DNA of 43,818 nucleotides, from positions 1 to 43,818 of IMG/VR virus record IMGVR_UViG_3300042691_009387. One strand, 5' to 3'. Source of the stretch: a virus. Made by a program: the position numbers and the translations under genes. The notes beneath the pieces were generated by a model that saw only the letters and a program-made list of their open reading frames with translations, made no database searches and was not told the origin of the DNA. The number at the start of each line of letters is the position of its first letter. Position 1 is the stretch's first letter. Positions 28,834-40,582 of this stretch are shown here, piece after piece.

Positions 28834-30816
28834 TCACATGACTGCGATGCAGCCGTCGTCGCCGATCCAATACGGCGCCGTGTCACCGTTGCACAGGCTC
28901 TCCAACGCACGCTTCGCGTGCTGCCGCCTTGTGTCCCGCTTGCCATCCTCCGGTGCCGGCAAGCGCTTGACCGCCTCGGCCAGCACCGCAGCCACCTCAA
29001 TACCCTCGGTCTGCGCCTTGGCCATCTCCTGGATCACCTCGTTGACCACCACCTCCTTCGGCCCCAACTGACGCAGCAAGCGCACGCCCTGGAGCTCAGC
29101 CTCGACCACCACACACGACGTGATGGGCTCCATGTCCTCATCAGCGCCGATCTGCACCACGTCCAGCGCGAAGCCCCACTCGAGGCCGTCCTCGCCGTCC
29201 TTGTTCTTGCTCAGACGCAGCGCACGCTGGCCTGACTCGGTGCGGATCACCTCGACCTCAGCGTCGGCCGCCGCACGCAGGCCTGACCAACCCCGGGCGC
29301 CCCTGGCCTGGTCCTTCCCGCTGTGGTGGATGAGCACCACCAGCGCCCCTGTGAGCTCGTGCAGGCGCTTGCAATGGCCCAGGGCCTTGCCCATGTCCTC
29401 GCCCGCGTTCTCGTTGGCCCCTGGAGTGGTCTGCGCGAGCGTGTCGACCACGATCACGCTGGTGTCCTCCCCCGCCGCCAGCACGCCCACGGCCAAGTCC
29501 TTGGCATCCTCGAGCAGCATCAGGTTGGGGGCCCCGTTGAGCACGCTCACGGGCACGTCAGCGAGGTCGAGCTTGTTGTGCTGGGCGTAGGCGGCCAAGC
29601 GCTTCCTGAACCCGTCAGCGCCCTCGGCAGCAACGTATGCCACCCTCCCCTGCCTGACCTTGCGACCACGCCAGGGCGTGCCCCTGGCAATGGCCAACGC
29701 CAGGTCAAGCACGACGAACGACTTGCCGGCACCGCTGGCGCCGTAGATCACCGCCAGGCCCGCGGCCGGCAGCACGCCCTTCACGATCCAGGGCAGTGCA
29801 GTCGCGTTGGCGAACGTGTGGGCGGGCTCGAACTGAAACCGCAGCGGCTTGCCGTTGGCCTTGGCCGCCTCCACCGTCTCGGTGACCATGACCTCGAACT
29901 CCTCCGCGCTGGCCGGCGCACCACCAGCGATGGAGGCGCCGTGCTCGTTGGCCAGGTGCACGAAGCTCTTGCCGGTGACGACCGGCCCTTGCCCCTTGCC
30001 GAAGCTGTCCCAGCGCTGGCGCAGGATGTCGCGGCCGGGGAACTTCGCGCCTCGCTCGCTCCAGTCGCACCAGTAGTCGAACCCCTCGCCCCGTGTCTCG
30101 TGATGCAGCGCCATGCCGACCTGGAGCCACTCATCGTGGCCGGTGTCGGGGTCAAGGTGCTCCAGGCCCTGCTCGATCTGGCTGGGTGTGAGACCCAGCA
30201 CCGGGTCGTCGTGGCTGGGGGTCGGTCCGTCCTGGCGCTGGAACCGCTGGCGCACCAGGCCCATCACCTCCTCCCCGATCGGGGAGACGGTGTTCTCGTT
30301 GCCGAGCACGTCGCAGATCTCCAGGCGGTTGCCGGTGACGGTCACGAATCCCTTGGTGCTGAAGGTCTCGAACCCGTAGGCGCCCTCGAACGACTTGCGG
30401 TTGAACAGCAGGCCACGCAGCAGCACCCGCACGCCGGTGCCCGATGGGCTCCACTCCGCGTAGCTGGTCGATGCGATCGCCTCCACCTCGGGGTGGAGCT
30501 GGCCGCCGCTGACGCATCGGTCGAAGTCGAGCGCGGTCAGGTTCCAGTCAGGCAGCAGTGCAATGCCCACGCCGTCGAACCCGCGGCGGGCGGCTGCACT
30601 GCGTGCGGCGTCGAACGTGGTGAGCTGCTGCCTGTCCTCGGGGGAGCCCTGCTGCCCCTGGCGGCGTCGCCCGTTGGGGTAGTACGGGACCTTGCGGGGC
30701 TTGTCCTCGCCCTCGTGGTACTCGAGCCGCCACATCAGCCAGCCCGGGATCTCTCGGAGCTCGTCTGGGACTGTGACGGTGTTGAGGTGTGCGCTGAGTT
30801 TGGTCACGGCGCTCAT
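28834..30816 (-). CDS. Primase-helicase (PrimPol-like, PriCT_2 and RecA-like ATPase)
   Basis: 660 residues. The N-terminal 130 contain YYPNGRRRQG, then VGIALLPDWNLTALDFDRC and EWSPSGTGVRVLLRG, the pattern of the primase-polymerase N-domain of phage/plasmid replication proteins. Next is a PriCT_2-like segment (GHDEWLQVGMALHHETRGEG). The C-terminal RecA-type ATPase has Walker A GASGAGKS at 359-366 (K365) and Walker B VIVVD with D458. It should unwind and prime phage DNA at the adjacent palindromic region. It is transcribed with the Cro-like gene upstream. The length and order resemble RepA/AAA_25-type phage helicases. Primase activity is inferred, not shown. Confidence 0.82.
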   Translation of the reverse strand: MSAVTKLSAHLNTVTVPDELREIPGWLMWRLEYHEGEDKPRKVPYYPNGRRRQGQQGSPEDRQQLTTFDAARSAAARRGFDGVGIALLPDWNLTALDFDRCVSGGQLHPEVEAIASTSYAEWSPSGTGVRVLLRGLLFNRKSFEGAYGFETFSTKGFVTVTGNRLEICDVLGNENTVSPIGEEVMGLVRQRFQRQDGPTPSHDDPVLGLTPSQIEQGLEHLDPDTGHDEWLQVGMALHHETRGEGFDYWCDWSERGAKFPGRDILRQRWDSFGKGQGPVVTGKSFVHLANEHGASIAGGAPASAEEFEVMVTETVEAAKANGKPLRFQFEPAHTFANATALPWIVKGVLPAAGLAVIYGASGAGKSFVVLDLALAIARGTPWRGRKVRQGRVAYVAAEGADGFRKRLAAYAQHNKLDLADVPVSVLNGAPNLMLLEDAKDLAVGVLAAGEDTSVIVVDTLAQTTPGANENAGEDMGKALGHCKRLHELTGALVVLIHHSGKDQARGARGWSGLRAAADAEVEVIRTESGQRALRLSKNKDGEDGLEWGFALDVVQIGADEDMEPITSCVVVEAELQGVRLLRQLGPKEVVVNEVIQEMAKAQTEGIEVAAVLAEAVKRLPAPEDGKRDTRRQHAKRALESLCNGDTAPYWIGDDGCIAVM

Positions 30817-30819
30817 CGC

Positions 30820-31173
30820 TCAGTCGGCGGTGCCGCCCTCAGACTCCACGAACAGCTCGCCCTGGCGCGGGTCGACGATCGGGAAGTGGCTCGCCACCGC
30901 CCGCTCGCCAAGACACTTCTGGGCGTACTCGCACTGGCGGCAGGCGTCGACGACGTCGGTGCGGTAGACGACCGGCAACCGCCCCTTGCTGGCCTTGGCC
31001 ATTGCCTTGGTGACCCGCTCGAGGTCTCCACCACGCTGGGCGCTCGCCTCGCGGAAGCCCCCCGCGTACTGGTAGAGCATCGCCCGGCTGGTGCCCGCCA
31101 TCTCGGCGAGCGCCTCCTGCTCCTGTGGGGTGGCGGCCATCATCCAGGCCTTCATGGGTGTGATCGTGGTCAT
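30820..31173 (-). CDS. Cro-like HTH regulator with a cysteine cluster
   Basis: 117 residues from ATG 31173 (MTTITPMKAWMMAATPQEQE); an upstream in-frame extension reaches into the regulatory interval and is not supported. The HTH reads LAEMAGTSRAMLYQYAGGFR, like YdaS/Cro-type phage repressors. The C-terminal part has DACRQCEYAQKCLG, a C-x2-C-x6-C set that could bind zinc or an Fe-S cluster; this is unusual for a small Cro. The gene is first in the minus early transcript and is divergent from a CI-like gene. An operator (31203-31218) overlaps its putative -10. It probably controls both early directions. Confidence 0.72.
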   Translation of the reverse strand: MTTITPMKAWMMAATPQEQEALAEMAGTSRAMLYQYAGGFREASAQRGGDLERVTKAMAKASKGRLPVVYRTDVVDACRQCEYAQKCLGERAVASHFPIVDPRQGELFVESEGGTAD

Positions 31174-31202: not shown

Positions 31203-31218
31203 TGTAGCATTTAGTAAA
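31203..31218 (-). promoter_or_regulatory. Operator copy 1 with cro promoter -10
   Basis: On the minus strand it reads TTTACTAAATGCTACA; the right half matches the consensus GCTACA while the left half has two mismatches. The following TACAGT can serve as a -10 for the cro transcript, with GTGCAA 16 bp upstream as a weak -35. It lies in the cI/cro divergent interval. Confidence 0.55.
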
Positions 31219-31258
31219 GCCGTTGCACACCCTGCTATGACTGTGCGAGGCTATCCGG

Positions 31259-31684
31259 GTGAGGACCATCTACGACACCCGCCGCGACAACCTGCGAGCG
31301 CTCATCGGCCAGTGGGGTGGGCCGACCTCGCTGGCGAAGAAGCTGGGGCACTCGAACGGGAGCTACATCGCCCAGCTCGCCGGGCCCAGGCCGTCGCGCG
31401 AGGTCAGCGAGAAGGTGGCCCGCGAGATCGAGAAGGTGCTGGGCCTGCCGGTGGCCTGGATGGACCAGGACCACCCGACCGGCGGCCAGCAGTTGAACGA
31501 CGAGACGCTGACCGAGTGTGTCAAGGCGGTGGCCACCGTGCTTCGTGACGCAGGTCTCAGACCGGACCCGCAGGCGTATGCGACGCTGGTCCAGCTTGTC
31601 TATGACCGCGTCAAGCTGACCGGCCGCCTGGACGAGCACCACATTCAGAAACTGACAACCCTACTCCGTGGGAGCGGACGATGA
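31259..31684 (+). CDS. CI-like repressor (XRE HTH, no peptidase domain)
   Basis: 141 residues with GTG start at 31259. The HTH region reads LRALIGQWGGPTSLAKKLGH, then SNGSYIAQLAGPRPSREVSE and KVAREIEKVLGLPVAWMD. This is the usual phage XRE pattern ending in 'LGLP-WLD'. The C-terminal 65 residues are helical and lack the S24/LexA-type Ser-Lys peptidase, so RecA-driven self-cleavage is not expected. It faces a Cro-like gene across an 85-bp interval, like lambda cI/cro. It could be the ligand of the dispersed operators. A small membrane protein gene follows with ATGA overlap. Confidence 0.72.
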   Translation: MRTIYDTRRDNLRALIGQWGGPTSLAKKLGHSNGSYIAQLAGPRPSREVSEKVAREIEKVLGLPVAWMDQDHPTGGQQLNDETLTECVKAVATVLRDAGLRPDPQAYATLVQLVYDRVKLTGRLDEHHIQKLTTLLRGSGR

Positions 31685-31833
31685 GCAACGAAGAGATCAA
31701 GCAGCGCATCCAGTACCTGATCGAGCACGGCGGCGTGTACGACGACCCACTAGGGGACATCCGCCGCCAGGTGCGGTGGGCCCTGGGCATCTCGCTGGTG
31801 ACCCTGCTGCTGGTGAGCGCGCTGCACCTCTGA
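31681..31833 (+). CDS. 50-residue single-TM protein
   Basis: ATG at 31681 overlaps the repressor stop as ATGA, so it is co-translated. It reads MSNEEIKQRIQYLIEHGGVY, then DDPLGDIRRQVRWA, then a membrane segment GISLVTLLLVSALHL that ends the protein. The soluble N-terminus would be cytoplasmic by the positive-inside rule. A lysogeny- or exclusion-associated role is possible, since it shares the repressor transcript and a terminator follows, but nothing in the sequence identifies it. Confidence 0.62.
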   Translation: MSNEEIKQRIQYLIEHGGVYDDPLGDIRRQVRWALGISLVTLLLVSALHL

Positions 31834-31854
31834 CCGTCGACCCCGGAGCGTGAG

Positions 31855-31882
31855 AAAACCCCACCGCCGTGTGGGGTTTTTT
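31855..31882 (+). terminator. Rho-independent terminator after the repressor operon
   Basis: Ten-base-pair stem AAAACCCCAC / GTGGGGTTTT with a 6-nt loop (CGCCGT) followed by further T residues. It ends the repressor/TM-protein transcript and isolates it from the operator-controlled early promoter that begins a few bases further on. Confidence 0.88.
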
Positions 31883-31893
31883 GTGGGTGGCGT

Positions 31894-31909
31894 TTTAGCA
31901 TGTGCTACA
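31894..31909 (+). promoter_or_regulatory. Operator copy 2, early promoter of the plus-strand module
   Basis: TTTAGC-ATGT-GCTACA, an inverted repeat with one mismatch between arms. The right arm runs into TACAGT, a probable -10 (31906-31911). The -35 region is weak (TTGTGG 19 bp upstream), which may mean activator dependence. It lies just after the terminator and 46 nt before the next start codon. Confidence 0.65.
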
Positions 31910-31955
31910 GTTCACACATCGCAGCAAGGACGCTGCTTCAACCGGAGTAAACGAC

Positions 31956-32318
31956 ATGGACGTCATCCTCAACATCGGCCTCAAGAGCGACACCCTCGGC
32001 GACATCTCCGTCGTGCTGGCCAAGCAGATGCTCTGGGCCGCCGACCTGCTGATCAAGAGCGAGCGCCTGGTCCAGTCCGACACCGAGCCGACCCTGGTCG
32101 TCGAGGTCACCAGCGTCAACGGCCCGACCCTGACGCTGTCCGCCTTGCACAACCTGTCTGTCGACCTCGGCCAGGACTGCATCGCCGTCTACCGGCCCAA
32201 GACCAAGGGCGGCGCCCTGGTCGGCCCGAAGGCCTCCGCCTGGGGCCGCTTCAACCCCGAGTTTTTCATCCTGCCCGACGGCACCCGCCTGGCAGCTCCC
32301 GCGGCGCAAGCCGCTTGA
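31956..32318 (+). CDS. Early protein of unknown function
   Basis: 120 residues; the ATG at 31956 has GGAG 9 nt upstream. It begins MDVILNIGLKSDTLGDISVV and contains LVVEVTSVNGPTLTLSALHN, then DLGQDCIAVYRPKTKGGALV. The protein appears to be a mixed alpha/beta domain ending FILPDGTRLAAPAAQAA. I know small phage early proteins with 'GPKA-AWG-FNPEFF' endings but not their function. It is the first gene under operator copy 2, so it is likely expressed immediately on infection. Confidence 0.6.
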   Translation: MDVILNIGLKSDTLGDISVVLAKQMLWAADLLIKSERLVQSDTEPTLVVEVTSVNGPTLTLSALHNLSVDLGQDCIAVYRPKTKGGALVGPKASAWGRFNPEFFILPDGTRLAAPAAQAA

Positions 32319-32342
32319 CCAGCCTGTAGCGCATGCTACAGT
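32315..32342 (+). promoter_or_regulatory. Promoter with operator copy 3
   Basis: TTGACC (-35) and TACAGT (-10, 32337-32342) are separated by 16 bp. Between and over the -10 lies TGTAGC-GCAT-GCTACA (32325-32340), the only copy with perfectly matched 6-bp arms. The -35 overlaps the stop region of the preceding gene. Confidence 0.72.
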
Positions 32343-32369
32343 TCACCTCCCGCAACTGCTAAACGTATC

Positions 32370-32738
32370 ATGCACGACCTCAACACCATCAATCGCCTGA
32401 ACTCCGAAGCCTTTAGCGAGGCCGTCGACAACTTCCGCGCACAGGGCCGCTACGTGCTGGCCAAGTACGACGGCGTCACCCTCATGTCCATCGAGACTTT
32501 CTCGAACGCAGAGGAAGCCGCCGCAGCGCTGGTGCAGGCCCAGGAAACCGGCGGCGTCAGCGAGCGCTTCAAGCTGCTGGCCCCCACCGGCACCTGGCAC
32601 GGCACCCAGCGGGACCAATCCGAGGATCGGGCCCAGCCGTACACGCTCGAGGAGCTCGCCGCCCTCGGCCGCAGCACCACCAAGACCGACGTCACCCTCG
32701 GTGACTACATCAACCGCGTCACCGCCCAGGAGGCCTGA
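32370..32738 (+). CDS. Early protein of unknown function
   Basis: 122 residues starting MHDLNTINRLNSEAFSEAVD. It contains YVLAKYDGVTLMSIETFSNA, then EEAAAALVQAQETGGVSERF and ending LGDYINRVTAQEA. Predicted alpha/beta, acidic, with no known motif. No SD is apparent before the ATG; it follows the operator-3 promoter by 28 nt, so its leader is short. It is the second early gene of the plus module, immediately before the recombination cassette. It could be a host-takeover protein, but there is no direct support. Confidence 0.58.
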   Translation: MHDLNTINRLNSEAFSEAVDNFRAQGRYVLAKYDGVTLMSIETFSNAEEAAAALVQAQETGGVSERFKLLAPTGTWHGTQRDQSEDRAQPYTLEELAALGRSTTKTDVTLGDYINRVTAQEA

Positions 32739-32742
32739 GATC

Positions 32743-33225
32743 ATGTTCCCCATTCACTTCAAGCTGACCGTCAGCGACATCACCCAGCTCCAGCGCCTCA
32801 CTGCGTTCATTGAGCAGGACGGCATTCAGGCGGTCGCCAACGCACCACGGCTGACCGGCAGCAACGCCAAGGCCGACATCGTGAAGGAGGCCGCCGCGCC
32901 GTCGGGAAAGCCGGCACCCGCTGCCAAGACTGCCCCTTCCGCTCCTACTGCCGAGGCGGCCCAACCCCCGGCACCCGCTGCGCCCGCGCCGAGCACGCAG
33001 TCAACGGCGGCCGAGACGCCCACGGCAGCACCTGCCGCTGCGAGCTCTGTCGGCTACCCTGACCTGCAGAAGGCGGTGCTGACCCTGCACAAGCTGGACC
33101 CGACCGCGGCGGTGCCGATCGCCAAGGGCCTGGGCGCCGACACGTTCAAGGCGCTGAAGCCGGAGCAGTGGGCCGAGGCCCACCGCCTGGTGACCGAGGC
33201 CATCGCCGCTCGGAGCGCAGCGTGA
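32743..33225 (+). CDS. Early protein with Ala/Pro linker
   Basis: 160 residues. The start at 32743 (MFPIHFKLTVSDITQLQRLT) is supported by a textbook SD AGGAGG 9 nt upstream. The first 60 residues form a compact domain. Residues 65-105 are a flexible Ala/Pro/Thr linker. The last 45 (DLQKAVLTLHKLDPTAAVPI, then ALKPEQWAEAHRLVTEAIA) form a small helical domain. The two-domain-plus-linker layout resembles phage proteins placed just before DUF2800 genes. The stop overlaps the next start as GTGA. No enzymatic motif was seen. Confidence 0.62.
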   Translation: MFPIHFKLTVSDITQLQRLTAFIEQDGIQAVANAPRLTGSNAKADIVKEAAAPSGKPAPAAKTAPSAPTAEAAQPPAPAAPAPSTQSTAAETPTAAPAAASSVGYPDLQKAVLTLHKLDPTAAVPIAKGLGADTFKALKPEQWAEAHRLVTEAIAARSAA

Positions 33226-34466
33226 CCGAGGCCGCCCACTCCAAGCTGAGTGCGTCGGCGGCCGACCGCTGGATGGCCTGCCCCGGCAGCGTCGTCCTGT
33301 CGGCCGGCCTGCCCGACAACACCAGCGAGTACGCCGCCTGGGGCAGCGTTGCGCATCGCGTCGCCGATGAGTGCCTGACCAAGATCTGGGACCCGGTCCT
33401 GTTCGTGGGCACCACCCACGACCAGGACGGCTACAAGATCACGGTCGACGCCGAGATGGTCGAGTGCGTGCAGACGTACCTCGGCAACCTGCGCGAGATG
33501 ACCGCAGGCGCCGACCTGTTCGAGTCCGAGACACGCACCAACTACAGCACCTGGCTCAACGTCGACCAGGATCTGGCCTGGGGCACGGCCGACGCCACCG
33601 CGCTGATCGGCACCGAGCTGCAGGTGCACGACCTCAAGACCGGCCGAGGTGTCGAGGTCGACGCGGTCGAGAACCGCCAGATGATGCTGTACGCAGGCGG
33701 CAAGCTGCTGGAGATGGAAGCGCTCGGCATCGAGGTCGAGACCGTGCGCCTCGTGATCCATCAGCCCCGCGTGCGCAAGGCCCCCAGCGAGTGGCGCCTG
33801 ACGCGCGACGAGCTGGCCGACTGGCTCATGGGCGACGCCCGCCAGGCCGCTCAGCGCGTGCTGACGGTAGGCGAGCCGCTGGACGAGTTCATGGCCGCCG
33901 GTGACCACTGCCGTTGGTGCCGCGCCAAGGCCACCTGCCCGACGTTGCGCGCTCATGTAGCCCGCACGGCTGCGCTGGAAAGCTACGCCGCCAGCCCTGA
34001 AGACTTTGACGACCTGTCCACTGCCATCCCGCACAGCCACAGTGAAGCCGCATGGCTCGCCGCCTGCCTGTCCAAGGTCGACATGATCGAGGACTGGTGC
34101 AGCGCTGTCCGCGCCGAGTCGCTGCGCCGCCTGTCGGCCGGCGAGCCGGTGCCCGGCTACAAGCTGGTGCAGGGCAAGCGCGGCGCCCGTGCCTGGGCCA
34201 ACCCGACCGAAGCCGAGAAGGTGCTGCGCGAGCAGTTCCGCCTGCCTGTCGAGAAGGCCTACGACCTGAAGCTGATCAGCCCCACGACCGCCGAGAAGCT
34301 GGCCAAGGCCGGCGACATCGGCCCCCGCCAGTGGGCCAAGGTCATCCCCCTCATCGTGCAACGTGACGGCGCCCCCAGCGTCGCCCCGGTGTCCGACAAC
34401 CGCCCCGCGATCACCGTCCAGCCGGTCGCAGAGGCGTTCGACGTCCAGGCTGGCGACATCGTCTGA
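33222..34466 (+). CDS. DUF2800 exonuclease (PD-(D/E)XK, Fe-S type)
   Basis: 414 residues from GTG 33222 (GTGA overlap). The nuclease core includes DLAWGTADATAL, VHDLKTGRG (the D-x-K pair) and NRQMMLYAGGKLL (QxxxY motif), typical of RecB/Cas4-like nucleases. Cysteines are placed as in the Fe-S subgroup: one near the N-terminus (DRWMACPGS, about residue 20) and C-x2-C-x5-C (CRWCRAKATC) near residue 230. DUF2800 proteins are encoded beside DUF2815 and a PolA-type polymerase in many phages and act in recombination or replication end-processing. Function is inferred from family and context. Confidence 0.82.
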   Translation: MTEAAHSKLSASAADRWMACPGSVVLSAGLPDNTSEYAAWGSVAHRVADECLTKIWDPVLFVGTTHDQDGYKITVDAEMVECVQTYLGNLREMTAGADLFESETRTNYSTWLNVDQDLAWGTADATALIGTELQVHDLKTGRGVEVDAVENRQMMLYAGGKLLEMEALGIEVETVRLVIHQPRVRKAPSEWRLTRDELADWLMGDARQAAQRVLTVGEPLDEFMAAGDHCRWCRAKATCPTLRAHVARTAALESYAASPEDFDDLSTAIPHSHSEAAWLAACLSKVDMIEDWCSAVRAESLRRLSAGEPVPGYKLVQGKRGARAWANPTEAEKVLREQFRLPVEKAYDLKLISPTTAEKLAKAGDIGPRQWAKVIPLIVQRDGAPSVAPVSDNRPAITVQPVAEAFDVQAGDIV

Positions 34467-34480
34467 AAGGAACCTGAACC

Positions 34481-35071
34481 ATGACTACCCCTACCCGCTT
34501 CCGCCTGGACAACGTCCGCGTCGACTGGCCCAACCTCTTCAAGGGTGAGCAGTTCCAGGGCACCGGCAGCTACCGCTGCGGCGCCACGCTGATCGTGCCC
34601 GGCGACCACCCTCAACTGCCGCAGATCAACGCGGCGATCGAGGAGGCCGCCAAGGCCAAGCTCAAGGACGCGACCAAGGCCGCGCTGTTCATCAAGTCCG
34701 CCCGCGCCAAAGGCAAGGTCTGCCTGTCCGACGGCGACCTCAAGGCCGCCAAGAACCCGCACTACGAGGGCACCTGGGTGCTGTCGGCCAACTGCAAGGG
34801 CGGCGACACCGAGGCCGAGGCCGAGAAGCCCACCGTGTACGACCAGTTCCGCAACCAGGTCACCGACCCGGCCAAGAACCCGATCTACCGCGGGTGCTAC
34901 GTGAACGCGCTGGTCGAGATCTACGCCGACAACCGCTACGGCGAGCAGATCAACGCCAAGCTCGTGGGCATCCAGTTCCGCAAGGACGGTGACGCCTTCG
35001 GCAGCGCGCCTGCACGGGCCGATGACTTCGACGACGTGGCCGAGGGCGCTGACGCCGACGCCTTCGTCTGA
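34481..35071 (+). CDS. DUF2815 single-stranded DNA-binding protein
   Basis: 196 residues. The N-terminus reads MTTPTRFRLDNVRVDWPNLF, then SYRCGATLIVPGDHP and YEGTWVLSANCKGG. The middle has VYDQFRNQVTDPAKNPIYRG and CYVNALVEIYADNRYGEQI. This is the DUF2815 pattern, an OB-fold ssDNA-binding protein functionally like T7 gp2.5. The acidic C-terminal end (ADDFDDVAEGADADAFV) matches the protein-docking tail of SSB-type proteins. It follows the DUF2800 exonuclease by 14 nt with SD AAAGGAA. Confidence 0.83.
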   Translation: MTTPTRFRLDNVRVDWPNLFKGEQFQGTGSYRCGATLIVPGDHPQLPQINAAIEEAAKAKLKDATKAALFIKSARAKGKVCLSDGDLKAAKNPHYEGTWVLSANCKGGDTEAEAEKPTVYDQFRNQVTDPAKNPIYRGCYVNALVEIYADNRYGEQINAKLVGIQFRKDGDAFGSAPARADDFDDVAEGADADAFV

Positions 35072-35101
35072 CCAACCGAAAGCGGGTCGCGCCTATCCTA
35101 C

Positions 35102-35221
35102 CCGGGTCTAGCCCACCCGGCACACAGCCCCTGCATCAGCGCCGCCGGTCCCCGCACACTTGAACGGCCGGCGGCGCTTACAGCGTCGGTGCGACGCAAG
35201 CAACGAAGACGTATGCAGGGG
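35102..35221 (+). ncRNA. Four-hairpin structured leader before the polymerase gene
   Basis: The 167-bp gap before the polymerase contains nested, perfectly paired arms. They are CCGGGT/ACCCGG (35102-35107 with 35115-35120), CCCCTGCAT/ATGCAGGGG (35128-35136 with 35213-35221), AGCGCCGCCGG/CCGGCGGCGCT (35138-35148 with 35168-35178), and GCGTCG-GTG-CGACGC (35183-35197). Together these make a three-way junction plus an upstream hairpin. It could be a cis-acting RNA controlling polymerase translation, a small RNA, or a DNA origin element. No T-run follows, so a simple terminator is unlikely. Confidence 0.55.
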
Positions 35222-35238
35222 AACGGGCCCCATACACC

Positions 35239-37314
35239 ATGACCACTCTCTGGTTCGATTGCGAGACCTACAGCGAAGCCGACCTCAAGGCGGTCGGCAC
35301 GCACGCCTATGCAGAGCACCCCAGCACCGAGATCACGGTCGCCCAGTGGGCGGTCGACGAGGGCGAGCCAGTGGTCGAGGACTGCAGCGAGAAGCTGGGC
35401 CCCAGCAAGGCGCTGCGCACCTGGCTGACGGCGCCAGGCGTCACCGTCGTGGCGCACAACAGCATGTTCGACCGCACGATTCTGCGCCACTGCTGGAACA
35501 TCAAGGTGCCGGTCAAGCGGTGGCAGGACACGATGGTGCGCGCGCTCGCGCACGGGCTGCCGGGCAGCCTGGACAAGCTCTCGGGCATCCTGAACCTGGC
35601 CAGCGACGAGGCCAAGGACAAGCGCGGCCGTGACCTGATCCAGCTCTTCTGCAAGCCCCGCCCGAAGGGCCACACGCTGCGCCGCGCCACCCGCGAGACG
35701 CACCCCACTGAGTGGGCCGAGTTCCTGGAGTACAGCCGCCAGGACATCGTCTCGATGCGCGCCGTGCACAAGAAGCTGCCGGCCTGGAACTACAACGCCA
35801 CCTCGCCAGAGCTCGCACTGTGGCACCTGGACCAGCGCATCAACGACCGCGGGTTCGCCGTCGACCTGGAGCTCGCCCACGCTGCGATCGAGGCGGTGGC
35901 CACCGAGCAGGCCCGGCTGAAGGAGGAGACCCGCGAACTGACCGGCGGCCAGGTCACCTCCCCCAGCAAGCGCGACGAGCTGCTGGCGCACATCCTGATG
36001 GAGTACGGGGTCGAGCTGCCCGACATGCGGGCCGACACGCTGCGCCGCCGGATCGAGGACCCGGAGCTGCCTGACGCGGTGAAGCTGCTGCTGTCGATCC
36101 GGCTTGAGGCCACGAAGACCTCGACGGCCAAGTACAAGGCCCTGGTCAAGGCCACCTCGGTCGACGGCCGCCTGCGCAACACGCTGCAGTTCGCTGGCGC
36201 TCAGCGCACCGCCCGTTGGGCTGGTCGCGTGTTCCAGCCCCAGAACATGCCCAGGCCTGACATGGAGCAGGACGAGATCGACCTGGCCATCGACGCGCTG
36301 AAGGCGGGATGCGCCCCCCTGGTAATCGCGGACGTAATGAGGGCCACCGCAAACACCGTGCGTGGCGCGATCGTAGCACCTCGTGGCAAGAAGCTGGTGA
36401 TCGCCGACCTGTCCAACATCGAGGGCCGCGGGCTCGCGTACCTGGCCGGCGAGACCTGGAAGGTGCGCGCGTTCCGCGAGTTCGACCAAGGCAAGGGCGC
36501 CGACCTCTACAAGCTGGCCTACGCCCGCTCGTTCACGGTCGACCCGAAGGACGTGACGAAGCCCCAGCGCCAGATCGGCAAGGTCATGGAGCTGGGCCTC
36601 GGGTACGAGGGCGGCGTGGCCGCGTTCCTGACGTTCGCCGCGGTGTACCAGATGGACCTCGAGCAACTGGCCGAGGCAGTGTGGTCGGCCGCCAGCGCGC
36701 AGGCGCTCGAGGCAGCGCTGGGCATGTGGTCCTGGGCCACGAAGAAGCGCCGCACGCTCGGCCTGTCGCAGCGCGTCTACGTGGCCTGCGAGGTACTGAA
36801 GGCCGCCTGGCGCGCTGCGCACCCGGCCACGACCTCACTGTGGGCTGACATGGGCACCGCAGTGCGCCAGGCCATCCAGCGCCCGGGCGAGGTGTTCCGC
36901 GTGCGCGCGATCGCCGTGCGCCGTGACGGGAACTGGCTGCGGGTGCGCCTGCCCTCCGGTCGCTACCTCTGCTACATCAACCCCGAGGTCGGCGACGACG
37001 GGCAGATCAGCTACATGGGCGTGAACCAGTACACCCGCCAGTGGGCCAGGATCAAGACCTACGGTGGCAAGCTGGTGGAGAACCTGGTGCAGGCCTGGGC
37101 CCGCGACGTGCTGGCCAGCAACATGGCCGCGATCGACGCCGCCGGCTACGAGATCGTGCTGACGGTGCACGACGAGCTGATCACCGAGGCACCCAACAAC
37201 CCCGCGTTCAACCACGAGCACCTGGCCGCGCTCATGTCCACCCAGCCAGCGTGGGCGCCTGACGTGCCACTGGCCGCGGCCGGGTTCGAGACGTTGCGCT
37301 ATCGCAAGGACTAG
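35239..37314 (+). CDS. DNA polymerase, family A with 3'-5' exonuclease
   Basis: 691 residues. The N-terminal DEDD exonuclease has Exo I LWFDCETYSEADL (D7, E9), Exo II VVAHNSMFDRTIL and Exo III YSRQDIVSM. Pol motif A is IADLSNIEGR (D390), motif B is RQIGKVMELGLGYEGG (R444, K448), and motif C is VLTVHDELITEAP (H644, D645). The motif B/C spacing matches bacteriophage-type family A enzymes of the DUF2800/2815 cassette rather than T7. It replicates the phage genome with the primase-helicase and SSB. A structured leader precedes it. A 6-bp hairpin CTAGGG-TTTG-CCCTAG spans the stop codon. Confidence 0.9.
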   Translation: MTTLWFDCETYSEADLKAVGTHAYAEHPSTEITVAQWAVDEGEPVVEDCSEKLGPSKALRTWLTAPGVTVVAHNSMFDRTILRHCWNIKVPVKRWQDTMVRALAHGLPGSLDKLSGILNLASDEAKDKRGRDLIQLFCKPRPKGHTLRRATRETHPTEWAEFLEYSRQDIVSMRAVHKKLPAWNYNATSPELALWHLDQRINDRGFAVDLELAHAAIEAVATEQARLKEETRELTGGQVTSPSKRDELLAHILMEYGVELPDMRADTLRRRIEDPELPDAVKLLLSIRLEATKTSTAKYKALVKATSVDGRLRNTLQFAGAQRTARWAGRVFQPQNMPRPDMEQDEIDLAIDALKAGCAPLVIADVMRATANTVRGAIVAPRGKKLVIADLSNIEGRGLAYLAGETWKVRAFREFDQGKGADLYKLAYARSFTVDPKDVTKPQRQIGKVMELGLGYEGGVAAFLTFAAVYQMDLEQLAEAVWSAASAQALEAALGMWSWATKKRRTLGLSQRVYVACEVLKAAWRAAHPATTSLWADMGTAVRQAIQRPGEVFRVRAIAVRRDGNWLRVRLPSGRYLCYINPEVGDDGQISYMGVNQYTRQWARIKTYGGKLVENLVQAWARDVLASNMAAIDAAGYEIVLTVHDELITEAPNNPAFNHEHLAALMSTQPAWAPDVPLAAAGFETLRYRKD

Positions 37315-37336
37315 GGTTTGCCCTAGGTTGCAGGGC

Positions 37337-37352
37337 TTTAGCATGTGCTACA
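37337..37352 (+). promoter_or_regulatory. Operator copy 4 with leaderless-type promoter
   Basis: TTTAGC-ATGT-GCTACA, identical to copy 2 over 16 bp. The following TACAGT (37349-37354) is a likely -10, and the ATG of the next gene (37362) lies only 7 nt after it, so transcription would start at or next to the AUG. The -35 is poor (TTGCAG at 15 bp). Confidence 0.6.
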
Positions 37353-37361
37353 GTTCTTCGC

Positions 37362-37475
37362 ATGGACAAACCACCGCCCATCTGGCCCTTCCCCACCTGG
37401 AAGGGTCAGCCCCTCCCCAAACCGAAGCGCCAGCCCAAGCCGGCGTACCCCTCCGACCAACCAGCACCATTCTGA
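37362..37475 (+). CDS. 37-residue proline-rich peptide
   Basis: Starts MDKPPPIWPFPTWKGQPLPK and ends SDQPAPF; 12 of 37 residues are Pro, with two Trp and many Lys/Arg. No SD precedes the ATG, which lies 7 nt after a predicted -10 in an operator-bearing promoter, so a leaderless mRNA is plausible. Its frame is open from the operator to 2 nt before the next gene. Proline-rich peptides of this length bind SH3-like or other host modules in some phages, but here that is speculation. Confidence 0.5.
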   Translation: MDKPPPIWPFPTWKGQPLPKPKRQPKPAYPSDQPAPF

Positions 37476-37477
37476 CC

Positions 37478-37636
37478 ATGAAGAACTACCGCACCCCCCG
37501 CACGATCGCCGAGTGTGACTTCACGACCGGCTATTCGATCGACAACCCCAACAAGGCCGCCGCTCGCCGGGCCGACATCTACCTCGCCGTGATCTGCGTG
37601 CTGGTCGCCGGCCTCATGCTGTGGGGGGTCATCTGA
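37478..37636 (+). CDS. 52-residue single-TM protein
   Basis: From ATG 37478: MKNYRTPRTIAECDFTTGYS, then IDNPNKAAARRADI, then a C-terminal membrane helix YLAVICVLVAGLMLWGVI. It ends with TGA overlapping the next ATG (TGATG). Small phage proteins with this 'RTPRT--E--F-TGY' N-terminus and one TM are seen in other genomes, but I cannot name a role. It is transcribed with the neighbouring Cys-rich TM protein. Confidence 0.58.
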   Translation: MKNYRTPRTIAECDFTTGYSIDNPNKAAARRADIYLAVICVLVAGLMLWGVI

Positions 37637-37854
37637 TGGACCCGAACCTGCGCATCGTCAAGCTGCCCGGCTGCCTGGGCGACTGCCAGCAAGGGCGCCG
37701 ACCTTGCATGAGCCCCAAGGAGTGCTCTCCTGACCAGCCGCTCACCCGCAACGGGTGCTTCATCATTCTGGGCGCTGCGGTGCTGGCCTGGGCCATGGTC
37801 GCGCTGGCGTTCCTGGCCGCGATCGCCCTGCACAACTGGTGGGCCGGGCTGTGA
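37636..37854 (+). CDS. 72-residue Cys-rich single-TM protein
   Basis: ATG 37636 overlaps the previous stop (TGATG). The N-terminal half reads MDPNLRIVKLPGCLGDCQQG, then RRPCMSPKECSPDQP, with four cysteines (C13, C17, C24, C30) in about 18 residues. The C-terminal half is a long hydrophobic helix CFIILGAAVLAWAMVALAFL. The Cys-rich ectodomain plus TM suggests a membrane-attached metal-binding or disulphide-bonded protein. It overlaps the VRR-NUC start by GTGA. Function unknown. Confidence 0.6.
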   Translation: MDPNLRIVKLPGCLGDCQQGRRPCMSPKECSPDQPLTRNGCFIILGAAVLAWAMVALAFLAAIALHNWWAGL

Positions 37855-38117
37855 GAGAGCGCGAGATCGAGGACTACCTGGCCCGCCGGGTCAAGGCCAT
37901 GGGCGGCGAGATCCGCAAGGCCCAGTGGATTGGGCGCGCTGGCGCGCCAGACCGCCGCGTGCTGCTGCCGGGTCGGCCACCCGTGTGGGTCGAGCTCAAG
38001 GCCCCCGGCGTCAAGCCAGAGCCGCACCAGATCCGTGAACACAACCGCATGCGCCGACTCGGCGAGCTGGTCGAGGTGATCGACTCGCTCGAGGGCGTCG
38101 AGGAGCTGCTGACATGA
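37851..38117 (+). CDS. VRR-NUC domain nuclease
   Basis: 88 residues from GTG 37851 (GTGA overlap). The whole protein is one VRR-NUC domain: REREIEDYLARRVKAMGGEI with catalytic E, then GRAGAPDRRVLLPGR (PD) and VWVELKAPGVKPEPHQIREH (ExK). This is the PD-(D/E)XK arrangement of stand-alone phage VRR-NUC proteins, which are thought to be structure-specific nucleases. It belongs to the polymerase/helicase cassette. A helicase of the SNF2 family is encoded two genes later, the usual partner in phages. Confidence 0.84.
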   Translation: MREREIEDYLARRVKAMGGEIRKAQWIGRAGAPDRRVLLPGRPPVWVELKAPGVKPEPHQIREHNRMRRLGELVEVIDSLEGVEELLT

Positions 38118-38461
38118 CCCGCGCATCCCATGCCGGCATCCGCGAAACCCTGGCCGCCTGCGGGCCGTTGACAAGCCGAGAACTCATGTCGTTTTTCCCC
38201 GCCAGCAGCCAGCAGGACATTGCCGGCCTGCTGGGCAGCATGCGCAAGCGCGTCGCAGTCAGGCAGGTCTACATTCACTCCTACACCCGAGAGGCCGACC
38301 ATGCCCGCGACTACATCCGCGCTGTTTATGCGTTGGGCAACCTGCCCGATGCGCGCAAGCCGAAACCCATGAGCAACGCCGAGCGGTGCAGGAGGCACAA
38401 GGCGCGCAGGGCGATTCCGAAGGTTGCGAACTCGGTGTTTGCGCTGGGGGCGTTTCTATGA
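38114..38461 (+). CDS. Small helical protein, winged-helix-like
   Basis: 115 residues, with ATGA overlap at the VRR-NUC stop. The N-terminus MTRASHAGIRETLAACGPLT, then SRELMSFFPASSQQDIAGLL and GSMRKRVAVRQVY, resembles a winged-helix ('G-LT-REL ... V---L-L-RKRG-V') as in phage regulators of this class. The second half contains NAERCRRHKARRAIPK, a basic sequence that may contact DNA. It probably regulates or binds DNA; evidence is from pattern only. Confidence 0.55.
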   Translation: MTRASHAGIRETLAACGPLTSRELMSFFPASSQQDIAGLLGSMRKRVAVRQVYIHSYTREADHARDYIRAVYALGNLPDARKPKPMSNAERCRRHKARRAIPKVANSVFALGAFL

Positions 38462-38634
38462 TGCGCTGCCCCACCTGCCAAACCTGGACCGAGGTGCTTG
38501 AAACCCGCACTCGCCAGGACGGAACCCGGCGCCGCCGGTACGTCTGCGCCAACATGCACAAGTTCAACACCGTCGAGCGGGTCGAGGTGGTGCAGCACGG
38601 CGGCGCCCGCAGAAAGGCACCCAATGCTGCGTGA
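38458..38634 (+). CDS. Zinc-ribbon protein, NrdR-N-like
   Basis: 58 residues; the ATG at 38458 overlaps the previous stop. It reads MMRCPTCQTWTEVLETRTRQ, then DGTRRRRYVCANMHKFNTVE. The CPTC---V-ETR---DG-RRRRYVCAN-H-F-TVE pattern is like the zinc ribbon at the NrdR N-terminus, with C4, C7, C29 and probably His at the fourth position. Small zinc-ribbon proteins are frequent beside phage SNF2 helicases. It may bind DNA or the helicase. No ATP-cone domain is present. Confidence 0.7.
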   Translation: MMRCPTCQTWTEVLETRTRQDGTRRRRYVCANMHKFNTVERVEVVQHGGARRKAPNAA

Positions 38635-39997
38635 CTACCAGCGTGCCATCGTCGGCCACATGCTGGACCACGAGCGCTGCAACGTGTGGGCCGGCATGGG
38701 CACCGGCAAGACGGTGTCCGCGCTCACCGCGCTGCAAGGCCTGGCGGCGGTCGAGGACCCCTTCCCCGCCCTGGTGCTGGCGCCGCTGCGGGTGGCCTCC
38801 AGCACCTGGCCCAGCGAGGTGCAGAAGTGGGCGCACCTGCAAGGCCTCAAGCTCGCGACCGCCGTCGGCGACGTCAACGCCCGGGTGGCCGCGGTGCACG
38901 CGCAAGCCGACATCGTGGCCACCAACTACGAGCAGATCCCGTGGCTGGTCGAGCACCTGGGCGACCAGTGGCCCTTCCGCACCGTCGTTGCCGACGAGGC
39001 CACCCGGCTGAAGTCCTTCCGCGCCAGGCAGGGCGGCAAGCGCGCCCAGGCCCTGGGCAAGGTGGCGCACAAGCACACCCGCCGCTGGGTCAACCTGACC
39101 GGCACGCCAGCGCCCAACGGGTTCATGGACCTGTGGGGGCAGCAGTGGTTCATCGACGCCGGTGCCCGCCTTGGTCGCTCGTTCAGCGCGTTCGAGGACC
39201 GCTGGTTCCGCGTCAAGCGGGCCCCGGGCCAGCAGTACGGTGGTACGGTCGAGCTGCTCGAGGGGGCGCAGGCCGAGATCGAGAGCCGCCTGGCCGACTG
39301 CACATTGACCGTGCGCGCTGCAGATTTTCTCGACCTGCCCCCGCTGGTTGAGAACACAATCGAGGTGGAGCTGCCGGCCACCGCGCGCCGGCACTACCGA
39401 GAGCTGGAGCGCGAGATGTTCACGGTGCTGGCCGGTGGCGCCGAGATCGAGGCGTTCAACGCCGCGGGGCGCACGATGAAGTGCCTCCAGGCCGCGAACG
39501 GTGCGCTGTACACCGACCAGCAAGGAGCATGGAAGGAGCTGCACAATGCAAAGATTGACGCCCTCTCGTCCGTGGTGGAAGAGGCTGCTGGGGCCCCGGT
39601 TCTTGTGGCGTACCAGTTCAAGTCCGACCTCGCCCGACTACAGCATGCGTTCCCTCAAGGTCGGGCGCTGGACGCTGACCCTCGAACGATCGAGGCGTGG
39701 AACCTGGGACGGATACCACTCCTATTCGCTCACCCTCAAAGCGCTGGCCACGGACTCAACCTCCAGGAGGGCGGGAACATCCTCGTGTTCTTCGGCCTGT
39801 GGTGGGACCTCGAGGCGCACGAGCAGATCATCGAGCGCATAGGCCCGACACGCCAGGCCCAGGCCGGCTACAACCGGCCCGTGTACGTGCACCGCATCGT
39901 CGCCCGCCAGACGGTCGACGAGCTGGTGCTGCAACGACTACAGACCAAGGCCTCGGTGCAGCAGGTGTTGCTCGAGGCAATGAAGACCCGACGATGA
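38624..39997 (+). CDS. SNF2-family helicase
   Basis: 457 residues from ATG 38624; a longer frame reads back through the zinc-ribbon gene in another frame and is rejected. The start MLRDYQRAIVGHMLDHERCN, Walker A WAGMGTGKTVSAL (K29), LVLAPLRVASSTW (Ia), motif II VVADEATRLKSF (D124/E125), LTGTPAPNGFMDLW (III) and the C-terminal VFFGLWWDLEAHEQIIERIG (VI region) define a phage SNF2/DEAD-like protein. It likely acts in DNA replication, repair or recombination with the VRR-NUC nuclease and exonuclease. The zinc-ribbon gene overlaps it by 11 nt. Confidence 0.86.
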   Translation: MLRDYQRAIVGHMLDHERCNVWAGMGTGKTVSALTALQGLAAVEDPFPALVLAPLRVASSTWPSEVQKWAHLQGLKLATAVGDVNARVAAVHAQADIVATNYEQIPWLVEHLGDQWPFRTVVADEATRLKSFRARQGGKRAQALGKVAHKHTRRWVNLTGTPAPNGFMDLWGQQWFIDAGARLGRSFSAFEDRWFRVKRAPGQQYGGTVELLEGAQAEIESRLADCTLTVRAADFLDLPPLVENTIEVELPATARRHYRELEREMFTVLAGGAEIEAFNAAGRTMKCLQAANGALYTDQQGAWKELHNAKIDALSSVVEEAAGAPVLVAYQFKSDLARLQHAFPQGRALDADPRTIEAWNLGRIPLLFAHPQSAGHGLNLQEGGNILVFFGLWWDLEAHEQIIERIGPTRQAQAGYNRPVYVHRIVARQTVDELVLQRLQTKASVQQVLLEAMKTRR

Positions 39998-40173
39998 GCT
40001 ACCTCCCTCCCCTTCCGCCAGGCTACGACTACAGCCTGGCGAAACGCCAGAACCTGCTGCTGGGTTTCAGCCCGACGCTCCCGATCCTGTACCTGGACGA
40101 GGCGACGATGACGTGGCGAGAACTTGACCGGCACGTCAGCGAGGTGCATCCTGCACTTGCGTCTAGCACTTGA
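39994..40173 (+). CDS. 59-residue early protein of unknown function
   Basis: ATGA overlap with the helicase stop. It reads MSYLPPLPPGYDYSLAKRQN, then LLLGFSPTLPILYLDEATMT and WRELDRHVSEVHPALASST. It has no motif I recognise. The last codons contain one copy of a 15-bp repeat that reappears after the Acb2-like gene. It is the last gene of the helicase operon before a regulatory interval. Confidence 0.55.
   Translation: MSYLPPLPPGYDYSLAKRQNLLLGFSPTLPILYLDEATMTWRELDRHVSEVHPALASST
40144..40158 (+). repeat. Direct repeat, left copy, flanking the Acb2-like gene
   Basis: GTGCATCCTGCACTT, in the last codons of the 59-residue gene. A copy with one mismatch (GTGCATCCTGCATTT) lies at 40598-40612 after the Acb2-like gene. 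It brackets the promoter, operator and gene. Confidence 0.6.
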
Positions 40174-40212
40174 TCAAAGACGCCCGAGCACTGAATCCCT
40201 CGCAAGGCTCGG

Positions 40213-40238
40213 CTGCCTTTAGCATTTTGGAAAGGCAG
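40213..40238 (+). promoter_or_regulatory. 8-bp hairpin before the moron promoter
   Basis: CTGCCTTT (40213-40220) and AAAGGCAG (40231-40238) form a perfect stem with a 10-nt loop that contains TTTAGC-like bases. It may terminate the upstream operon weakly, although no long T-run follows, or be a further regulator site. A TATACATTAT element comes just after it. Confidence 0.5.
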
Positions 40239-40267
40239 AATATACATTATGCGTCTCAAAACGGGGG

Positions 40268-40297
40268 TTGACGGGTTAGCAGTTGCTACAATATACT
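40268..40297 (+). promoter_or_regulatory. Sigma70-type promoter with operator copy 5
   Basis: TTGACG (40268-40273) and TATACT (40292-40297) are separated by 18 bp. GTTAGC-AGTT-GCTACA (40275-40290) lies between them, and a further CTGTAGC half site follows. This is the best promoter in the window and probably drives the Acb2-like gene. Confidence 0.8.
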
Positions 40298-40357
40298 GTA
40301 GCAAAACGGACGTCCGCCCCCGTACCAGTGGCGGCATTTTGATGAAAGACCTGACAC

Positions 40358-40582
40358 ATGGACAACCAACACCGCCAGATCAAGGGCTACCGCGAACTGT
40401 CGCAGGACGAGATCAACCTGATGAACGAGATCAAGCAGGCCGGCAAAGACCTGGGCGACCTCGTGGCCACGCTGAAGCAGATGCCCGAGCTCGACCAGCG
40501 CTGGATCTCGATCGGCGCGACCGAGCTGCAGCAGGGCTTGATGGCCCTGACCAGGGGTGTGGCCCGGCCGGAGTTCTTCTGA
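40358..40582 (+). CDS. Acb2-like anti-CBASS protein (nucleotide sponge family)
   Basis: 74 residues: MDNQHRQIKGYRELSQDEIN, then LMNEIKQAGKDLGDLVATLK, then QRWISIGATELQQGLMALTR and PEFF at the end. The 'QHR-I-GYR-LS--EI-LMNEIK' start and 'RW-SIG---LQQG-MALTR---P--F' end are, from memory, the conserved pattern of the Acb2/Tad1-like hairpin family of phage proteins. These bind cyclic (oligo)nucleotides and block CBASS effectors. The length is right (about 65-95). It is a lone gene with its own operator-bearing promoter, typical of a moron. The family assignment is by recollection of the pattern. Confidence 0.76.
   Translation: MDNQHRQIKGYRELSQDEINLMNEIKQAGKDLGDLVATLKQMPELDQRWISIGATELQQGLMALTRGVARPEFF

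Follow-up and report, generated by a model that had tools for sequence, protein, structure and literature searches.

Candidate operators in the early region

The window analysed here, a 43.8-kb IMG/VR virus record (IMGVR_UViG_3300042691_009387), carries a 16-bp inverted repeat, TKTAGC-N4-GCTACA, that recurs over 9 kb around two divergent regulatory genes encoding a YdaS-like Cro protein and a CI-like repressor (Table 1). The five sites were named D, R1, R2, R3 and R4. A first-pass annotation, made from the sequence alone, had placed copies at 31203, 31894, 32325, 37337 and 40275, and all five coordinates proved correct. A motif search of the window returned exact matches of TKTAGCN4GCTACA at 31894, 32325 and 37337 (chance expectation by shuffling 0.02), and four motif matches were reached in none of 100 shuffles. 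The 32325 site also matches exactly on the minus strand. The site at 40275, GTTAGCAGTTGCTACA, has a single mismatch and is accompanied by an additional half-site TGTAGC at about 40298. The site at 31203, which reads TTTACTAAATGCTACA on the minus strand, is degenerate and taken alone is at chance level (17 matches with up to three mismatches versus 12.2 expected). An Rfam scan of 28.8-41.2 kb gave no match. De novo ranking of half-sites was dominated by GC-rich coding repeats unless the motif was AT-rich. A LexA site was considered and rejected, as the CTGT...ACAG flanking spacing at 32325 is 10 and not 8.

Table 1. Candidate operators, regulators and neighbouring genes in the window
Feature	Coordinates	Strand	Remarks
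Primase-helicase	28834..30816	-	Downstream of cro in the leftward operon; PriCT-2 and AAA_25
YdaS-like Cro (P0002)	30820..31173	-	117 amino acids; helix-turn-helix (HTH) and Cys-containing tail; best candidate reader of the operators
Operator D	31203..31218	-	Degenerate, TTTACTAAATGCTACA; overlaps predicted -10 TACAGT (31206-31201) of leftward cro-primase/helicase promoter
Operator D, second arm		+	TTTAGTAAA; covers expected -35 of weak rightward cI promoter, as judged from spacing
CI-like repressor (P0001)	31259..31684	+	141 amino acids; N-terminal HTH; likely second reader
Operator R1	31894..31909	+	TTTAGCATGTGCTACA; overlaps predicted -10 TACAGT (31906-31911); 3' of cI/31681 operon, 5' of open reading frame (ORF) 31956
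Operator R2	32325..32340	+	TGTAGCGCATGCTACA; within predicted promoter TTGACC(32315-32320)-16-TACAGT(32337-32342); upstream of ORF 32370 and exonuclease/SSB genes
Exonuclease (DUF2800/PDDEXK)	33222..34466	+	Rightward operon under R2
DNA polymerase A	35239..37314	+	R3 lies just 3'
Operator R3	37337..37352	+	TTTAGCATGTGCTACA; overlaps predicted -10 TACAGT (37349-37354); just 3' of DNA polymerase, 5' of small-ORF/helicase operon
SNF2-type helicase	38624..39997	+	Between R3 and R4
Operator R4	40275..40290	+	GTTAGCAGTTGCTACA; within predicted promoter TTGACG(40268-40273)-18-TATACT(40292-40297); upstream of acb2 (40358)
Acb2/Tad1-hairpin protein gene	40358..40582	+	Downstream of R4; Pfam PF24729, E=3.8e-19

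At every site the right arm continues into a -10-like hexamer, TACAGT at four of them and TACAAT at 40275; the first-pass annotation had named these hexamers correctly but for four sites instead of five. All five sites contain the extended -10 sequence TGCTACART, and the final T of the hexamer is conserved in relatives independently of the search pattern. A consensus promoter scan of 9.9 kb gave only three promoter-like sites versus 0.6 expected, namely R2 (TTGACC-16-TACAGT, with TG before the -10), R4 (TTGACG-18-TATACT) and a third (32342-32371) that adjoins R2. At 40275, a better -35/-10 pair, TTGACG-18-TATACT, encloses the site. Since the operator occupies the promoter spacer and the -10, repression by occlusion is likely and is the simplest reading of its action. 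A second promoter-like pair, TTTAGC-17-TATACA, is located at 40218-40246, about 20-40 bp upstream of R4, and reads TTTACA-17-TATACA in relatives. As R4 lies downstream of this pair, the operator could also work as a roadblock there.

Relatives were collected by a DNA polymerase search (80), a search with the CI-like protein (34) and an alignment of Cro-like proteins (80), with overlap between the sets. In relatives TAGC-N4-GCTA occurred 191 times in 1.5 Mb versus 6.6 expected under a first-order Markov model, and spacers of N=2, 3, 6, 7 and 8 gave 4, 3, 4, 5 and 1 matches, respectively. The motif is typically found two to five times per locus at matching gene borders, both among polymerase and CI relatives and in the larger set. 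The conserved places are R1, 3' of the cI operon; R2, 5' of the exonuclease operon; R3, between some tens and a few hundred bases past the stop codon of the polymerase; and R4, beyond the helicase. Of 208 sites in the relatives from the polymerase and CI searches, 45 were inside called ORFs, although 88% of the bases were coding by the same rough calls, and several of the 45 lie in over-called ORFs; the 37337 site, for instance, is in a spurious one. The annotation would have been refuted by a motif equally frequent inside coding regions, which was not observed, and its proposal of a multi-site phage regulon that covers both early directions and the CI/Cro interval is supported by the conserved positions and the overlapped promoters. 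Polymerase relatives at 50-60% identity were mostly without the motif.

Two further patterns were observed in the relatives. A version with a 5-bp spacer, TAGC-N5-GCTA, is rarer (21 occurrences, in L016, L025, L027, L044, L052, L110, L113 and other lineages), often lies upstream in the leftward region or at the cro promoter and is absent in the window. Moreover, many relatives carry a half-site GCTAAA about 17-18 bp downstream of R2 and beside the ribosome-binding site (about 32359-32364 in the window).

Site D was compared by aligning the relatives on the cro start. Most of them carry TTGCTGCAA-nnn-CTTTACannn-TGCTAMA or close variants in the cro-cI interval, and the degenerate form TTTACA-N4-GCTAMA, with a left arm TTTACA in place of TTTAGC, is itself conserved. 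Because most relatives have this degenerate form at the cro promoter, we regard site D as real. The alignment suggests a weak operator on the leftward cro/primase-helicase promoter whose degenerate state is conserved; the control of the primase-helicase that the annotation had proposed would act through this site only.

No DNA match to the window was found by megablast or blastn among 50,697 phage records, and the phage group has no close isolate in that collection. A profile scan of genome contigs with the CI alignment returned only one relative, on a contig of a 2.9-Mb Burkholderiales metagenome-assembled genome in which six of the seven sites lie on a single 44-kb contig carrying the phage-like locus. 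The hosts of the group are probably Burkholderiales.

The two regulators and the losses of CI

The start of cro was placed at 31173 (117 amino acids) and not at the longest-ORF start, 31269. The Cys tail of P0002 is conserved among its relatives. A Pfam scan of P0001 and P0002 alone gave no families and a search of P0002 in the phage records gave no match. Among the Cro relatives, a cutoff of E up to 1 gave weak PF15943 (YdaS_toxin) matches in 27 of 45 family members (best 2.5e-5), the window member being unmatched, and HTH_3 matches were found as well. For the AlphaFold model of P0002 (predicted local distance difference test 82) the best PDB fold matches, although weak, were to YdaS (8co2/8c7k), with YdaS of CP-933P first (8co2, E 0.025).

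P0001 was assigned to phrog_12107, a transcriptional repressor, and matched phage transcriptional repressor families. It is similar to the annotated repressor of Curvibacter phage PCA1, and its N-terminal half to SfV cI. The first fold match of its model was Rep of Salmonella phage SPC32H (5d50, E 0.02), and the N-terminal domain of PaaR2 was among the weak matches (E=5.4). The model is all-helical and Pfam gave no S24 peptidase match in P0001. The CI recognition helix GHSNGSY-AQL is nearly invariant, so that the attempt to name the reader by covariation of CI and operator failed in cI-plus lineages.

We then compared the sites with the presence of CI. The 75 lineages with cro comprise 47 with CI, 24 with none detected at the usual place and four with a divergent CI; L050, L187 and L189, whose CI is 35% identical to that of the window, were counted among the 47, their own CI being in the query set. 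TAGC sites are kept in 44 of the 47 lineages with CI and in 19 of the 24 without detected CI. On the cro tree, well-supported branches force at least 10 changes of CI state, the alignment having few columns and many forks being open. In many relatives CI is deleted, truncated or undetected where it usually lies. In seven lineages (L008, L018, L125, L150, L152, L153, L175) only about 100-170 bp separate cro from the first operator, too little room for a cI gene. L015 shows a remnant fusion of cI and orf31681, and cI is apparently broken in L007 (971-1195), where it diverges after about 23 residues, and in L031 (1513-1785), where it stops after 91. L152 and L150, a pair without CI, agree at 12 of 12 positions of the R1 arms while the centre and the flanks have changed; in L125/L158, 11 of 12 arm positions are identical. 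The left arms of the CI-less L035 and L037 have shifted together to TGCAGC or TACAGC (TRCAGC). Besides, L183, L185 and L195 carry TTTAGC-type sites and have CI replaced by another HTH protein with a different recognition helix.

Probable reader of the sites and proposed circuit

On balance, we consider it probable that the 16-bp palindromes serve as operators in a circuit encoded by the phage, in which the YdaS-like Cro reads the sites and represses at early promoters, with CI sharing them. Of the two regulators named in the first-pass annotation, CI is not required for retention of the sites, and the YdaS-like Cro is more likely to read them because 19 of the 24 lineages without detected CI keep TAGC sites. 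L050 has nine sites that read, exactly or nearly, TTTATC/TTTACC-N4-GATAAA (0.075 expected), both arms having changed together, and Cro and CI are both divergent in L050, L187 and L189. The persistence of operators where CI is lost or replaced, together with the joint change in L050, suggests that the constant reader is the YdaS-like protein, and CI probably uses the sites as well. We infer that both proteins bind, that binding represses and in which order the sites fill.

Several observations weigh against this reading. TAGC sites persist in L011, L047, L051 and L054 despite substantially different Cro recognition helices, so that covariation of helix and operator is not clean. The covariation in L050 does not single out Cro, as both regulators differ there at once. 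L184 has no clear site at the cro promoter, R1 has a poor -35 in the window, and the E-values of the fold searches are weak (0.02-0.05). Finally, retained sites may be relict, as with D29, which arose by deletion from a temperate parent and still carries L5-type stoperators (PMC5712189).

A stronger form of the same explanation, compatible with it, would have CI and Cro share all five sites equally and with opposite preferences, exactly as PaaR2 and YdaS. The published footprints of those two proteins overlap, the divergent cI/cro layout here places both promoters at one site, and the isolates ACF1 and PCA1 carry the same CI-like/YdaS-like pair with adjoining TTTAGC-type sites. CI binding, however, is itself inferred here, and CI is lost or replaced while the sites stay; we place equal sharing just short of an even chance. 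Less probable is that the circuit is primarily a CI-independent switch for lytic timing, with Cro as the ancestral and sufficient reader and CI as an optional overlay that was lost or swapped many times. As no integrase, resolvase, ParA or rve transposase was recognisable in most near-full-length records, chromosomal lysogeny would not have to be a purpose of the module at all. The survey took in the window and the records of L013-L110, L087, L091 and L098; among the 16 records of 42-46 kb with CI and Cro, the window included, all possibly incomplete, a tyrosine integrase was found only in L087 and L098, and a resolvase, ParA or rve transposase in none.

It is unlikely that only the CI-like repressor uses the sites as operators, in a classical immunity system with Cro acting elsewhere or only at D and with relict sites in CI-less relatives. 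The nearly invariant CI helix and the 44 of 47 CI lineages with TAGC sites would fit such a system, the scattered CI-loss lineages are consistent with recent losses, and D29 provides a precedent for relict stoperators. However, CI-less sister lineages keep the arms despite divergence of the flanks, the left arms of L035 and L037 shifted jointly without CI, and sites are kept where the CI helix differs. A strong extended -10 promoter with an incidental left arm would explain TGCTACART in all five sites and the conserved final T, but the left arm, although part of the promoter spacer, is conserved at a fixed 4-bp spacing, and its joint change with the right arm in L050 already contradicts this very improbable alternative. 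Least probable of all is binding by a host regulator: phages can borrow host factors, but all except one of the seven sites in the Burkholderiales genome are on the contig that carries the phage-like locus, and the sites change together with the phage regulators.

In the circuit that we propose, the YdaS-like Cro would bind TTTAGCA-NN-TGCTAMA as a symmetric oligomer. As the operators all lie over the predicted -10 of sigma-70-type promoters, the bound protein would keep RNA polymerase off the leftward promoter of cro and the primase-helicase (weak site D) and off the rightward promoters at R1, R2, R3 and R4. Upon infection the early promoters would fire, Cro would build up and the strong sites would be shut first, while the conserved weak D site would let Cro synthesis last longest, as negative feedback. 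The CI-like protein would most likely occupy the same sites and keep all early promoters closed, and it may activate its own weak promoter from D, like PaaR2 in CP-933P.

The annotation had also proposed control of acb2. R4 does lie upstream of acb2 in the window, but this arrangement is not general, as acb2 was found in only two of 17 records, the window and the L023 record (G006, 28942-29106), and the post-helicase element recurs without it; Acb2 is an occasional passenger. In this element (window 40150-40310; also L044, L063, L021, L019, L031 and L025) a TTTACA-17-TATACATTATGCG promoter-like pair overlaps a TTTACAAATTTGTAA inverted repeat. A TCTAGCANNTGCTAGA palindrome is located 111-113 bp upstream of R4 in relatives and is degenerate in the window near 40163. 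Farther away, in the virion gene block, the minus strand (14803-17013) encodes a 736-amino-acid ORF with 66-bp tandem repeats, for which no PHROG match was found.

The sites provide an operator code, TTTAGCA-NN-TGCTAMA with its variants, for a large uncultured phage group and tie it to a YdaS-type Cro. The many natural losses of CI with retained operators make it testable what role Cro-type control has in phages that lack, or never use, a lysogenic repressor.

Comparison with known systems

The annotation had likened the arrangement to lambda or L5. This comparison did not hold, since neither clustered triplets nor 13-bp asymmetric stoperators were found; there is one palindrome per promoter, and the regulator types are closest to PaaR2/YdaS. 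Dispersed repressor sites on many promoters also occur in phage P1, but the c1 operators are asymmetric 17-bp sequences read by an unrelated repressor. In contrast to the three-operator clusters of lambda OR/OL, we found one site per promoter and only scattered half-sites near cI, and the CI-like protein has 141 amino acids without a Pfam match to S24, the autocleavage domain. The L5 stoperators, about 24 copies of a 13-bp asymmetric consensus, occur throughout the genome (PMC5712189). Like them, the sites described here are dispersed, mainly intergenic and common to relatives, as the L5 sites are to D29, but they are palindromic, lie at -10 elements and are confined to the early region.

The closest fold to the CI-like protein, by a weak match, is that of SPC32H Rep (5d50), which is relieved by an antirepressor protein (PMC9638917); sequence identity is 22%, and no antirepressor was identified here. 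Acidovorax phage ACF1 and Curvibacter phage PCA1 encode repressors that are 37-42% identical, with a divergent YdaS-like small gene on the primase side and TTTAGCATCTGCGAAA and TTTAGCACTTGCAAAA, respectively, in the same interval, the latter twice exactly in PCA1. Their genomes are longer and the right arms asymmetric (GCGAAA, GCAAAA); as isolates, both offer laboratory material.

The nearest counterpart is the immunity region of the cryptic prophage CP-933P of E. coli O157:H7, in which the CI analogue PaaR2 and YdaS have overlapping footprints, built on TTTAG half-sites (GTTTAGTAA), at the two divergent promoters (PMC8630535). The half-site in our phages is TTTAGCA, site D reads TTTAGTAAA on the plus strand, and the locus likewise combines a YdaS-family Cro-like protein, a divergent CI/PaaR2-like repressor and a repeat at both predicted divergent promoters. 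The CII analogue YdaT was not identified, the primase-helicase gene following directly after cro, and no search aimed at YdaT was made. CP-933P carries clustered 18-bp repeats at PR/PRM and PL, whereas the window has a single 16-bp palindrome per promoter over 9 kb. Moreover, the sites reach the replication genes and acb2, and relatives often lack a CI gene at the usual position. The regulator types and the divergent layout are thus known from PaaR2/YdaS; new are the dispersed single palindrome at each early promoter and the recurrent loss of CI.

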